Below are positions 10,168 to 14,509 of a stretch of 49,263 bases of DNA, one piece after another. This DNA is from a bacterium (GTDB taxonomy: Bacteria; Myxococcota_A; Bradymonadia; UBA7976; UBA1532). A program made the translations under genes and the position numbers. Location: the NCBI GenBank assembly GCA_030426085.1, contig JAUHYW010000076.1, positions 1-49,263 on the forward strand. The letters are read 5' to 3'. The notes beneath the pieces are model-generated. The model ran no database searches. It was not told the DNA's origin and saw only the letters and a list, made by a program, of their open reading frames with translations. The stretch's first letter is position 1, and each line of letters starts with the position of its first letter.

Positions 10168-10773
10168 TCAGACCTCGGCCAGATAGGCCCGGGCGTCCTT
10201 GCGGATGCGGAACTTCCAGTTGTGCACCACCTGCTGGCTGACCCCCAGCGCGTCGGCGGCCTCCCGGGTCGACAGGCCGTCGCCGAAGACGCAGCGCAGC
10301 ACGAGCCGGCCCTTGCGGGGCAGGGTCTCTTCGAGGTGGGTGAACAGGCGCTCGAGCAGGTCCCGATCGAGGATGGGGCGGTCGACGGCGCCTCGGGCGT
10401 CCTCGACCTGGCTCGGCAGGCCGCTGACGGTGCGGGCCACGTCCCGCTTGCCGGCCCGGCTGCGGCGGACGGCGTCGCTGGTGACCCGGTCGGCGATGCC
10501 GCCCACGTAGCCCTCCAGCGAGCTGCCCCGGGCGGGGTCGTAGCGCCGCAGCAGCCGCTTGTCGTCCTGCATCAGCGTCACCCAGACCTCCTGCACGACG
10601 TCGTCGGGCGACAGGGACGAGCTGCGTCGGCGCAGGGTGGAGCGCACCCGGGACTGGATCACCGGCGTCAGCCGTCGCAGCATCGAGCGCGCGGCGTTGC
10701 GGTCGCCCCGGATGAACCGGGTCACCTCGAGGTCGCCGCTGATCCCCAGCGCGGCGAAGATCATCGCCAGCAT
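10168..10773 (-). CDS. ECF-like RNA polymerase sigma factor
   Basis: 201 residues from the ATG at 10773, chosen because GGGGAG lies nine bases before it. An upstream in-frame ATG at 10836 would overlap the preceding gene by 46 bases. Region 2 is clear (SPDDVVQEVWVTLMQ with YDPARGSSLEGYVGGIADR for -10 recognition), as is region 4 (LPRKGRLVLRCVFGDGLSTREAADALGVSQQVVHNWKFRIRKD in parts) for the -35 element. Regions 1.1 and 3 are absent, as in ECF factors. It follows the anti-sigma-like gene by 17 bases, so the pair should form a regulatory couple. Likely targets are the operon itself and the divergent subtilase (inference). Confidence 0.88.
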   Translation of the reverse strand: MLAMIFAALGISGDLEVTRFIRGDRNAARSMLRRLTPVIQSRVRSTLRRRSSSLSPDDVVQEVWVTLMQDDKRLLRRYDPARGSSLEGYVGGIADRVTSDAVRRSRAGKRDVARTVSGLPSQVEDARGAVDRPILDRDLLERLFTHLEETLPRKGRLVLRCVFGDGLSTREAADALGVSQQVVHNWKFRIRKDARAYLAEV

Positions 10774-10790
10774 CGAACGCAGCTCCCCAT

Positions 10791-11570
10791 CTACGGCACG
10801 ATCTCGGCGGTGATCGTCATCCAGCAGCTCTCGCACAGCGCCGCCCGGGCGTCGTCGACGCTGCGCCGGGTGAGGCGGGGGCTCTCGTCGGGCGCGCTGA
10901 GCGCCAGATGCAGCCGCGACGGGCCCACCGCCTCGCCGAACAGATCACCCGCCCGGCCCTCGACCCGCACCGCCGAGCGGCCCCGGGTCACCCGCACGTC
11001 CACCGGGTGCAGGCGGTCATCGGGCCCGACCCGCCACGCGCTGACCTGGGGCACGCCGCCGGTGTGATCCTCGAGCGGCCCGAGCATGAGCTTGACCCGG
11101 GCGTCGGGCACGAAGCGCAGCGGGCCGGCGCCGGGGTCGTCGCCGCTGCGCACCGCCTTGATCTGACCGCTGACGCTGGCGACCTCCATCCGGGGGGCGA
11201 AGTCGGGCGTCGCCGGGCGCATGACCCAGGCCACCACGCTGGCGGCGAGGGCGATGGCCACGGTGACGATGCCCACCCGGTTGGCGATCGTGCCCTCCTC
11301 GCTGGGCGGCACGACGATCGCTTCGAGGCGGGCGAGCAGCGCGTCGTCCACCGGCGCGGTCGACTCGGCGAGCACCGCCCGGGCCTGGGCGCTCTGCAAC
11401 AGGATCTGCTCGACCCGGGCGGTGTTGCCCTCGTCCAGATCCCCCCGGCGATAGCGGGCGAGCTGAGCGTCGTCGAACGGGCGGTCGACGTCGGGGAAGG
11501 GCATCCGGGCGAGCTCGGCGTCGAGCTGGGCATCGGTCAGCGGGGTCATGTCGGCCTCGTCGTCGCTCAT
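10791..11570 (-). CDS. Membrane-spanning anti-sigma-like regulator
   Basis: 259 residues. The N-terminal ~95 residues are cytoplasmic and resemble the helical sigma-binding part of anti-sigma factors (FDDAQLARYRRGDLDEGNTARVEQILLQ), but lack the HxxxCxxC zinc motif of the ZAS class. One membrane helix spans about residues 99-117 (VGIVTVAIALAASVVAWVM). The outer part (about 140 residues) is beta-rich, reminiscent of FecR-type sensory domains, with a CESC pair near the end. Its start overlaps the CHAT stop by four bases and the sigma gene follows after 17 bases. I infer it holds the sigma factor at the membrane until the outer domain is cut or altered; the CHAT protease is the obvious candidate. 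Confidence 0.75.
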   Translation of the reverse strand: MSDDEADMTPLTDAQLDAELARMPFPDVDRPFDDAQLARYRRGDLDEGNTARVEQILLQSAQARAVLAESTAPVDDALLARLEAIVVPPSEEGTIANRVGIVTVAIALAASVVAWVMRPATPDFAPRMEVASVSGQIKAVRSGDDPGAGPLRFVPDARVKLMLGPLEDHTGGVPQVSAWRVGPDDRLHPVDVRVTRGRSAVRVEGRAGDLFGEAVGPSRLHLALSAPDESPRLTRRSVDDARAALCESCWMTITAEIVP

Positions 11571-14236
11571 GGGTGTCCGGTGAGCCGGAACGCCGACCAG
11601 ATCGGGTCGCCCCGGCGGTGGAATTCGGCGGTGGTCGCGGCGAGGGCGGCGCCGGGGCGGTCGAGGCCGCCGGCGGCGTGGAACCGCGCGATGAAGCGGG
11701 CCGCGCCCTCGTCGGGGATGTTGCGCCGCGTCGCCAGCACCGCCCGGCTGCCGGCCGCCACGAAGGCGTCGGCCAGCCCGAGGGCCTCGCGGTCGGACAG
11801 CGCGCCCCGCACCCCGGTGCGGCAGCCGCTGAGGACCACGGTGCCCGCGGGCACCTCGGCGGTGAGGATGTCGGCGACGGTCAAGGTCGTCTCTCCGGCC
11901 AGAGCCAGGTGAGCCTGCCACGGGCTGTCGGCGCGGGCTACTCCGTGTCCTGCGTAGTGCATCGCCCGAGCCCCGCCCATCGCCGCCTCGACCGCGTCCC
12001 GGGTCGCCGCGCCCCGGACGATGAGGCGGGCGTCGGGCAGCCTCGCGGCGACGGCCTCGCCCTCGGCGAAGGCGTGGGGCAGGTCGATGGTCGGATCGGC
12101 CACCACCAGCGGGGGGCGGGTGGCCGGCGAGCGGGGGCGGCGGGCGAGGCCGGCGTAGGCCAGGTCGCTCAGCGAGATCCGGGTGCTCAGCGGGGCGCCG
12201 CCGTGCTCGGCGAGGCCCAGGCGGCGGGCGGCGGGCACGTCCCCCGGGACGACGTAGAGGTGCTCGAGGCCGGCGAGCCGCTCGGCGAAGGGCGCGATGA
12301 GCGCCGCCGGCTCGGGCGCGTCGCCGGGCACCACCGCGTGGGCCACCGGGGCCGCGTGGGCCAGCCAGAAGCCGTGCACCGCGCCCCCGACGCGGCCGAA
12401 GGCGACCAGCGCCCGCCCCGCGGGCAGCGCGGCGGCGATCGCGGCGGCGTCGGCGGTCGCGGTCCGGGGCGGGGCCGCCTGGGCCAGCAGCGCCTCGGCC
12501 GCCTCGAACGCGGCGACCATCGCCTTCTGGCGCCCGGCCTGGGCCGCCTGCCACGCGGCCGCCTCGGGGCCGTCGAGCAGCTCGCCCTCGTCCCGGGCGG
12601 CGTCCCACGCCTGGCGGGCGGCGGCGAAGCGGCTGCGGTGGGCCTCCCACTCCGAGCGCCGGGCGGGGGGCAGCCGGTCGAGGCGGGTCCGGGCTTCGAG
12701 GGCCCGCAGCGCGCGGGCGTTGGCCGCGTCGATCACCGCGAACGCCCCGGCGACGTCGCCCCCGTCGAGCAGCAGGCGCACCGTGTCGTCGACCAGCGGC
12801 CGGCGGTCGGCGTAGAACCGGGCCCGGGCGTGCCAGACGCCGGTGCGGGTGCCGACCGCGTCGAGGGCGGCGAGCGCCTCGCGGAACCGGCGCAGCGCCT
12901 CGCCCCGATCGCCGCGGGCGGCGGCGATGCGCCCCAGGCCGTAGCTCGCCCGCCAGGTGTTGTCGGTCGGCAGCCCCGCCGCGCTGCGGGCGCTGGCCGC
13001 CGCCGACCGCTCGAACGCGGCCTCGGCGGCTTCGAGCGCGCCCCGCCGCAGGGCCACCTCGCCCCGGATGAGCTCGGCGGCGACGTTGCGGGCCCCGACC
13101 TCGACCTTCTGGATGGCGCTCCACGCGGCGTCGAGATCGTCGCGCAGCAGAGCGGCCCAGGCGAGATTCGCCCGGGTGTTCTCCAAGACCGGGCCGCCTT
13201 CCACGAGCGCCTCGGCGGCGCGCAGGTCGCGCTCGGCGTCGGCGAGGCGGGCGGGCGGCACGGCGCCCGAGGCGATCGCCAGGAGCTGGATCCAGCCCCG
13301 GTTGCTGAGGAAGACGGCCCGCCCGATGGGGTCCCGCGACTCGGCGAGGCGGGCCAGCCGCGGGTCGGCGATCGTCTCGAGCGCGTCGGCCGTGCGCCCC
13401 TGGTCGACGAGCGTGACCGCCAGCAGATCGAGCGCGAAGCCGAAGGTGGCGTCGTCGCCCAGATCCCAGGCGCGGGCGGCCGCCTGCTCCAGCGCCTCTG
13501 TCGCCGAGCGATAGCGGCCCCGCATGGCGTCGAAGCCCGCCCGGTAATACAGCAGCCGCAGCGCGTCGACCGGCGCGTCGAGGTCGGCGAGCAGGCCTTC
13601 GGCGCGTTCGAGCAGCGTGTCGGCCTCGGTCAGCCGGCCCTGGTTGGCGTGCAGGAGCGCCGCCGCCCGCAGCGCTCGTGATCGAGTCCGAGGCAGCCCC
13701 AGCCGCTCGGCGTGGGCTTCGGCGGCGTGCCAGGTCTCGATCGCGTCGGTGATCGCGCCCCGTCGACGCTGGGCGCGGGCGAGCGCGTGCAGCGCCCACA
13801 GCCGGGTGAGGCTGGCGTCGGGCGGCAGATCGGCGACCGTCGAAGCGTCGGGGGCCCCAGCGTCGGGGGGCTCGGCCCACCGCGCCGGCCAGCAGTGGCC
13901 CACCGCCTCGACCGCTACGCACAGCGCGCCCGCGGTGCCGACCGGGCTCGGGGCGGTGATCCGGAGCAGCCGCCGCTCGCCGCGGATCCCGCCTTCGAAG
14001 GGCAGCGGCTGGCGGCGGCCGTCCCCCAGCATGAACACCGACGCACCCGACAGCCGCGCCGGCAGCGCGATCCGGGGCTTGCGCCCGGCGTCGAAGACCA
14101 GCCGGCCGTCGGCCGCGACGACGCGCTCGCCCATCACCGTCGCCGACCACGGGGCCTCGGCGGGCGCGCCCTCCCGGCAGGCGGCGGTCGCCACGCCGAC
14201 GGCGATCAGCGGGACCAGCGTGCGGGGGGTGGCCAT
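11567..14236 (-). CDS. TPR-CHAT caspase-like protease, predicted lipoprotein
   Basis: 889 residues. The N-terminus is a signal peptide with lipobox (GVATAAC, Cys20), placing the protein in the periplasm or outer envelope. A short beta-rich region and DAGAPDAS linker precede about 450 residues of helical TPR-like repeats (roughly 130-560). The C-terminal CHAT domain (about 590-889) has both catalytic residues: His764 in MHYAGHG and Cys805 in VVLSGCRTG. CHAT enzymes are clan CD cysteine peptidases related to caspases and separase, usually gated by partner proteins. It is first in a five-gene cluster and overlaps the anti-sigma-like gene (ATGA), so that protein is a plausible substrate. The start ATG at 14236 follows a GAGAG sequence. 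An exported CHAT protease is unusual, since many known ones are cytoplasmic. Confidence 0.88.
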   Translation of the reverse strand: MATPRTLVPLIAVGVATAACREGAPAEAPWSATVMGERVVAADGRLVFDAGRKPRIALPARLSGASVFMLGDGRRQPLPFEGGIRGERRLLRITAPSPVGTAGALCVAVEAVGHCWPARWAEPPDAGAPDASTVADLPPDASLTRLWALHALARAQRRRGAITDAIETWHAAEAHAERLGLPRTRSRALRAAALLHANQGRLTEADTLLERAEGLLADLDAPVDALRLLYYRAGFDAMRGRYRSATEALEQAAARAWDLGDDATFGFALDLLAVTLVDQGRTADALETIADPRLARLAESRDPIGRAVFLSNRGWIQLLAIASGAVPPARLADAERDLRAAEALVEGGPVLENTRANLAWAALLRDDLDAAWSAIQKVEVGARNVAAELIRGEVALRRGALEAAEAAFERSAAASARSAAGLPTDNTWRASYGLGRIAAARGDRGEALRRFREALAALDAVGTRTGVWHARARFYADRRPLVDDTVRLLLDGGDVAGAFAVIDAANARALRALEARTRLDRLPPARRSEWEAHRSRFAAARQAWDAARDEGELLDGPEAAAWQAAQAGRQKAMVAAFEAAEALLAQAAPPRTATADAAAIAAALPAGRALVAFGRVGGAVHGFWLAHAAPVAHAVVPGDAPEPAALIAPFAERLAGLEHLYVVPGDVPAARRLGLAEHGGAPLSTRISLSDLAYAGLARRPRSPATRPPLVVADPTIDLPHAFAEGEAVAARLPDARLIVRGAATRDAVEAAMGGARAMHYAGHGVARADSPWQAHLALAGETTLTVADILTAEVPAGTVVLSGCRTGVRGALSDREALGLADAFVAAGSRAVLATRRNIPDEGAARFIARFHAAGGLDRPGAALAATTAEFHRRGDPIWSAFRLTGHP

Positions 14237-14283
14237 CGGCTCTCGATCGCTGGGGCGGATCACATACGACCCGCGGTCGGGCG

Positions 14284-14289
14284 ACGATA
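14284..14289 (-). promoter_or_regulatory. Candidate -10 box upstream of the CHAT operon
   Basis: TATCGT on the minus strand, 47 bases before the CHAT start, within an AT-richer patch. It resembles TANNNT boxes seen before other genes here. No clear -35 element. Confidence 0.3.
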
Positions 14290-14438
14290 GCAGATACACA
14301 GCGTGACGGGGGCCCGGGCCGCGGGCCGCGCCGAGCGGGCGGGGCAGCGAGGTCGGCGCGCTATGGGACGAGGGCGGATGCATGTCACCCTCCACTTGGC
14401 CGGACACTGAACGGATTTTTTTTCGTGAGGTCGAAAAA

Positions 14439-14467
14439 GAAACCTCTGGCGGAGGCCAACCGATGAA
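14439..14467 (+). promoter_or_regulatory. ECF-type promoter candidate for the subtilase gene
   Basis: GAAACC at 14439-14444 and CGATGAA from 14461 are separated by exactly 16 bases, close to the GGAACC-N16-CGTCTA pattern recognised by many ECF sigma factors. It lies 43 bases before the subtilase ATG, next to an unusual T-tract at 14416-14423. The neighbouring sigma factor is the natural candidate; this is an inference from spacing and sequence only. Confidence 0.35.
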
Positions 14468-14471
14468 TAGA

Positions 14472-14489
14472 CGCGGCCGCCCGGCCGCG
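14472..14489. promoter_or_regulatory. 8-bp inverted repeat in the subtilase 5' leader
   Basis: CGCGGCCG at 14472-14479 and CGGCCGCG at 14482-14489 form a perfect inverted repeat around CC. It would sit at the very 5' end of a transcript from the ECF-like promoter candidate, where a hairpin could protect the mRNA, or it could be an operator. Confidence 0.35.
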
Positions 14490-14509
14490 GCGAGTCCCGA
14501 GGAGGAGAG

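Follow-up and report, generated by a model that had tools for sequence, protein, structure and literature searches.

A TPR-CHAT, anti-sigma and ECF sigma factor cassette of Myxococcota as a candidate split relative of DdvA/DdvS

Described systems and the window locus

Control of a sigma factor by a caspase-like protease has been described for type III-E CRISPR systems, in which Csx29 cuts Csx30 and so relieves CASP-sigma (PMC10028731). In Myxococcus xanthus, the ECF sigma factor DdvS is held by the membrane anti-sigma factor DdvA, whose inactivating signal is unknown (PMC4374960), and DdvS controls a CBASS and type III-B CRISPR island (PMC12288465). Proteolytic control without an anti-sigma factor has been proposed for the ECF54 loci of actinobacteria, which carry carboxypeptidase, subtilase and CHAT genes (reviewed in PMC8999054). 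A further precedent is the regulated intramembrane proteolysis of RseA (DegS/RseP) and RsiW, where a membrane anti-sigma factor is opened outside by a protease before its span is cut. The site-1 protease of these systems is DegS or PrsW.

The window, that is, the whole stretch of 49,263 nucleotides that was analyzed, belongs to a host genome of 10.1 Mb in 178 contigs with 23 CHAT matches. It holds genes for a predicted TPR-CHAT protease, a membrane anti-sigma-like protein, a predicted ECF sigma factor and a subtilase. Among known systems, DdvA/DdvS comes nearer to it than Csx29/Csx30 does. Like the DdvA/DdvS pair (PDB 8rot, 8rw5), the window system combines an ECF sigma factor with a membrane anti-sigma factor in Myxococcota, and the outer part of DdvA (residues 324-991) has, by fold, the TPR-CHAT arrangement of the window CHAT. 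In DdvA, however, this arrangement lies on the anti-sigma polypeptide, a feature met here only in fusion proteins of relatives, whereas the window encodes it by a separate gene for a separate, exported-looking and possibly lipid-anchored protein. Further differences are the added subtilase and the number of CHAT paralogues, about ten or more in each genome.

The window system resembles Csx29/Csx30/CASP-sigma in having an ECF sigma factor, an inhibitor protein and a predicted TPR-CHAT protease whose fold is the same; in the CRISPR case, the inhibition is relieved by proteolysis. Csx29, however, is cytoplasmic and RNA-activated via Cas7-11, whereas the window CHAT looks exported; Csx30 is a 565-residue two-domain protein, unlike the window inhibitor, which appears to be of the zinc-type membrane anti-sigma kind; and the type III-E system has no subtilase. 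ECF54, compared by description, shares an ECF sigma factor with conserved subtilase and CHAT neighbors and a proposed proteolytic control, but is described as having no anti-sigma factor, whereas the window cassette has a predicted membrane one. The site-1 protease of RseA and RsiW is not a caspase-like CHAT protein, unlike that of the case proposed here. On balance we lean towards reading the locus as a DdvA-type transmembrane switch of sigma and anti-sigma factor, split and expanded, whose CHAT protease would cut or open the anti-sigma factor outside the membrane.

Genes and predicted proteins of the cassette

10168-10773, minus strand: predicted ECF sigma gene (201 aa; TIGR02937 2.5e-16)
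10791-11570, minus strand: predicted one-span anti-sigma gene (259 aa; from zf-HC2 in homologues, PDB profile matches and AF2)
11223-11285, minus strand: predicted transmembrane helix of the anti-sigma factor (residues 96-116, AF2 model)
11567-14236, minus strand: TPR-CHAT (caspase-like) gene (889 aa; exported-looking; Pfam CHAT 6.7e-28)
11822-11824, minus strand: predicted catalytic Cys805 codon of CHAT (kept in 31/31 paralogues)
11945-11947, minus strand: predicted catalytic His764 codon of CHAT (kept in 31/31 paralogues)
14360-14388, minus strand: promoter-like pair GTGACA-N17-CATAGC, 5' of the CHAT operon and common to the sister genome
14510-16930, plus strand: predicted S8 subtilase gene (806 aa; divergent from CHAT; Pfam Peptidase_S8 2.8e-11)

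A first-pass annotation had described a three-gene minus-strand operon, and its coordinates were confirmed: the CHAT and anti-sigma genes overlap by ATGA (11567-11570) and a 17-base gap separates the anti-sigma gene from the sigma ATG (10773), a longer sigma start at GTG 10836 being a possible alternative. To these three members the divergent exported subtilase is added as a fourth. The ECF-like label of the sigma factor is borne out by matches to Sigma70_r2 (2.6e-07), r4_2 (8.2e-06) and TIGR02937, which predict an ECF sigma factor with regions 2 and 4 only; the sister-genome protein is 91% identical. Between the divergent CHAT and subtilase genes, the pair GTGACA-N17-CATAGC recurs with the same spacing in the sister genome, which weakly hints at a promoter function. 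Each of the two genomes holds one exact match, at this locus, and the attempt to derive a regulon from the pair was dropped on that ground.

The window CHAT comprises a signal peptide with a possible lipobox (residues 1-20), a beta domain (~30-120), a TPR superhelix (~130-510) and the CHAT domain (~590-889), the last three of which are folded as such in an AF2 model (pLDDT 85.8, pTM 0.86). His764 and Cys805 lie in the contexts HYAGHG and LSGC, and none of the 31 paralogues checked has lost either residue of this dyad. Among solved structures Csx29 matched the model best (VIA Z 27.5 over 549 residues), which upholds the kinship proposed earlier; separases reached Z ~23 and DdvA Z 20.8 over 616 residues at 19% identity, with model residues 36-887 on DdvA 324-991. 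Domain, dyad and fold thus place the protein in the TPR-CHAT (caspase-like, clan CD) family as a predicted protease. PDB sequence searches did not recover DdvA, whether the query was a fusion protein, the CHAT profile, the window CHAT or another CHAT from Myxococcota. PADLOC, run on seven cassette-near proteins, gave as its sole match a marginal BovA hit to the CHAT. In the host genome, two loci (L043 and L044) on two contigs have identical CHAT N-termini, perhaps through recent duplication or as an assembly duplicate.

Export of the CHAT proteins was judged by a simple in-house rule on N-termini, not SignalP, which found a signal-like N-terminus in 26 of the 31 paralogues and a lipobox-like Cys in 18; the five in which the rule recognized no signal may have wrongly called starts. 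The window CHAT looks exported and is possibly lipid-anchored. Of the earlier description as a lipobox-bearing protein with both catalytic residues, the residues and the export-like N-terminus stand, but the window lipobox (TAAC) is weak, that of the sister genome (SAGC) being better. An in-frame ATG upstream of the CHAT gene (within 14237-14509), which coincides with the promoter-like site, lies at the conserved GGAGGGTGACATG and has a good ribosome-binding sequence, would add ~48 residues before the signal-like segment; this earlier start is disfavored because the upstream peptide is poorly conserved.

The 259-residue protein has a predicted cytoplasmic helical domain (~13-86), a transmembrane helix and an Ig-like outer domain (~124-259). 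Its AF2 model (pLDDT 82.7) places one span in the membrane and 143 residues outside, in agreement with the ~140 first proposed. No Pfam match supports the anti-sigma label for the window protein; zf-HC2 is matched by 4 of 16 homologues (best 6.2e-06), and the family profile searched against PDB gave as top matches, at modest significance, RslA (E 0.0044; chain 3hug_B, titled 'probable conserved membrane protein', which we take to be RslA) and ChrR (E 0.052). The label is sustained by these homologue and profile matches, and the N-terminal domain is probably of the RslA/ChrR-type, Class I (zinc-type) membrane anti-sigma kind, an assignment of modest significance. The HxxxCxxC zinc motif is lost in the window copy, which reads LLQSAQAR where homologues have HLARCAECR. 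Zinc-less members are included in the Class I (zinc-type) anti-sigma class. By homology, the domain would bind the sigma factor.

No Csx30 chain was matched by the anti-sigma profile in PDB at E up to 1. The idea of a CRISPR-free Csx29/Csx30-type system is supported for its Csx29-like CHAT, its anti-sigma factor and its sigma factor, but this search yielded no Csx30 relative, the profile having matched zinc anti-sigma factors, and DdvA/DdvS is nearer. The Ig-like outer domain (Z up to 7.6) has a common fold that is uninformative on function. In the linker of the anti-sigma proteins, no common cleavage motif could be made out. The outer domain (window 10794-11222) ends in a CxxC, which reads CESCWM in the window and CGSCWM in the sister genome and did not appear in the other homologues. 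A common origin of this domain and the CHAT N-terminal beta domain was considered and rejected (hhalign E 0.08, probability 0.7%).

The N-terminus of the subtilase reads as a signal peptide, and its Asp-His-Ser triad (D239, H273, S514), invariant in 9 homologues, together with the Pfam match assigns it to the S8 family. It is counted as a cassette member because its homologues adjoin paralogous CHAT genes of other cassettes.

Recurrence and rearrangement across Myxococcota

An anti-sigma and a sigma gene were found within four genes of CHAT at 47 loci, in about 20 gene orders and several Myxococcota families. These loci were gathered around CHAT matches and sigma-baited loci, and sister genomes add orthologous pairs, so that not all are independent. 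The surveys cover retrieved stretches around loci, with genes from a simple in-house caller. The anti-sigma and sigma genes are adjacent on one strand in 41/47, mostly with a 4-base overlap. Window-like CHAT matches number ~11 in the host genome and 14 in its sister. Such co-occurrence, in varied orders and even as fused genes, agrees with what a comparative search was expected to find, and joint function is well supported because the association persists through rearrangement.

Loci baited with CHAT are circular evidence, and the sigma factor was therefore taken as bait. A CHAT gene lay within 10 kb in 13 of 18 loci of a named-genome scan and within ~9 kb in 17 of 20 loci from other Myxococcota families, where ~0.04 CHAT per such stretch would be expected by chance (our own arithmetic, from 23 CHATs in 10.1 Mb). 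These surveys rule out a chance neighborhood. The relatives from the sigma-baited scan are metagenome-assembled genomes, assigned to Myxococcota or Myxococcales where a group is given. In the remaining five of the 18 loci no CHAT was seen within the stretch examined, at least one of which ends at a contig edge, and CHAT may for this reason be non-obligatory. Same-family sigma/anti-sigma pairs with no CHAT in the stretch occur at L072, L073, L080 and L086, the last two near TonB-receptor-like genes.

An internal contrast is offered by the other CHATs of the host genome, which are not window-like: most (L041-L046, L048 and L049) have no such sigma neighbor in the retrieved stretches, whereas L040 and L047 do. 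These two loci encode a second, longer CHAT class of ~1330 aa, in which no signal was seen; nearby lie genes for an exported protein, a 207-aa protein and an ECF sigma factor. The GDPD and amidase genes downstream of the window cassette were rejected as members, since they were not seen beside the sister's cassette.

A subtilase gene also lies within four genes in 29 of the 47 cassettes. It is conceivable that the subtilase, and not CHAT, is the site-1 protease, with CHAT controlling the subtilase; its triad is conserved and its gene sits inside several cassettes, between other members. This arrangement is very improbable given the 18 cassettes without a subtilase in that range. A possible third protease, an exported-looking C14 caspase (Pfam 5.1e-15), is encoded within the cassette at L078:7292-9097 (also L124), beside anti-sigma, sigma, a partial subtilase and CHAT.

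Fusion open reading frames of 1051 or 1052 aa were found in two genomes of another family; both genomes are from one genus and count as one event. In each, an anti-sigma part (2-241, transmembrane segment ~75-97) precedes TPR-CHAT, which runs to the C-terminus and retains the dyad; upstream is an overlapping sigma gene, and downstream a gene for a subtilase. With the anti-sigma domain necessarily on the cytoplasmic side, the fused CHAT would lie outside the membrane. The fusion and DdvA argue, without proving it, that CHAT acts on the signaling side. That CHAT is a non-cutting receptor, which docks on the anti-sigma outer domain and signals by a change of shape, the dyad serving another substrate or none, would fit the fusions and DdvA, where the TPR-CHAT fold simply is the outer part of the anti-sigma factor, and ECF systems that need no dedicated protease next to them for signaling are known. 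It appears unlikely, however, as a pure receptor has no need of a dyad kept in 31/31 paralogues and both fusions, and a second exported protease accompanies 29/47 cassettes. The retained dyad argues for a catalytic role of CHAT but does not prove it.

Across 22 paralogous loci, pairwise distances of CHAT, anti-sigma and sigma factors are correlated (r 0.58, 0.45 and 0.47; Mantel p 0.0005), so the cassettes appear to have diverged as units. CHAT and subtilase might also be output of the switch, the sigma factor turning on two exported proteases against prey, phage or a damaged envelope; CHAT might then activate the subtilase. ECF sigma factors often target genes next to their own, and the window subtilase diverges from the operon and shares with it a 273-base upstream region. 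Defense genes under DdvS control point the same way (PMC12288465). Yet the anti-sigma::CHAT fusion and the DdvA structure link CHAT to the signaling side, and the CHAT-anti-sigma distance correlation at least equals that of CHAT and sigma, which makes the output reading quite unlikely.

A possible envelope switch

The cassette, its predicted parts, the export-type N-termini, the retained catalytic residues of both proteases and the anti-sigma::CHAT fusions are supported by sequences and models. In the split DdvA-type switch that we prefer, the 259-residue anti-sigma factor would use its N-terminal domain to keep the ECF sigma factor at the inner membrane. Outside the membrane, the TPR-CHAT lipoprotein, usually together with the exported subtilase, would act on or with the Ig-like outer domain. 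An envelope signal read by the TPR and beta parts may activate the CHAT protease, which would then either cut the outer side of the anti-sigma factor or bind and thereby open it. The span could subsequently be cut by an RseP-like site-2 protease (M50, RseP-type, proteases are present in the host genome), and the freed sigma factor would turn on other genes as well as its own cassette. We infer the signal, the cut, the protease that makes it, the order of the proteases and the target genes alike. A bolder version, in which these widespread envelope cassettes use an exported caspase-like protease as site-1 protease of their own anti-sigma factor, in a two-protease relay with the exported subtilase and with DdvA related by gene fusion or splitting, is offered tentatively and with some doubt.

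Such a switch could explain the retention of CHAT and subtilase genes at ECF54-type loci. As a split relative of DdvA with a separate caspase-like protein that keeps its catalytic residues, the window system makes the question of the inactivating signal of DdvA testable by single-residue mutants. If the proposal is true, caspase-like control of sigma factors would extend from the CRISPR-bound Csx29 to the bacterial envelope. The many-copy cassette of Myxococcota looks like a protease-driven switch from envelope signal to gene expression.
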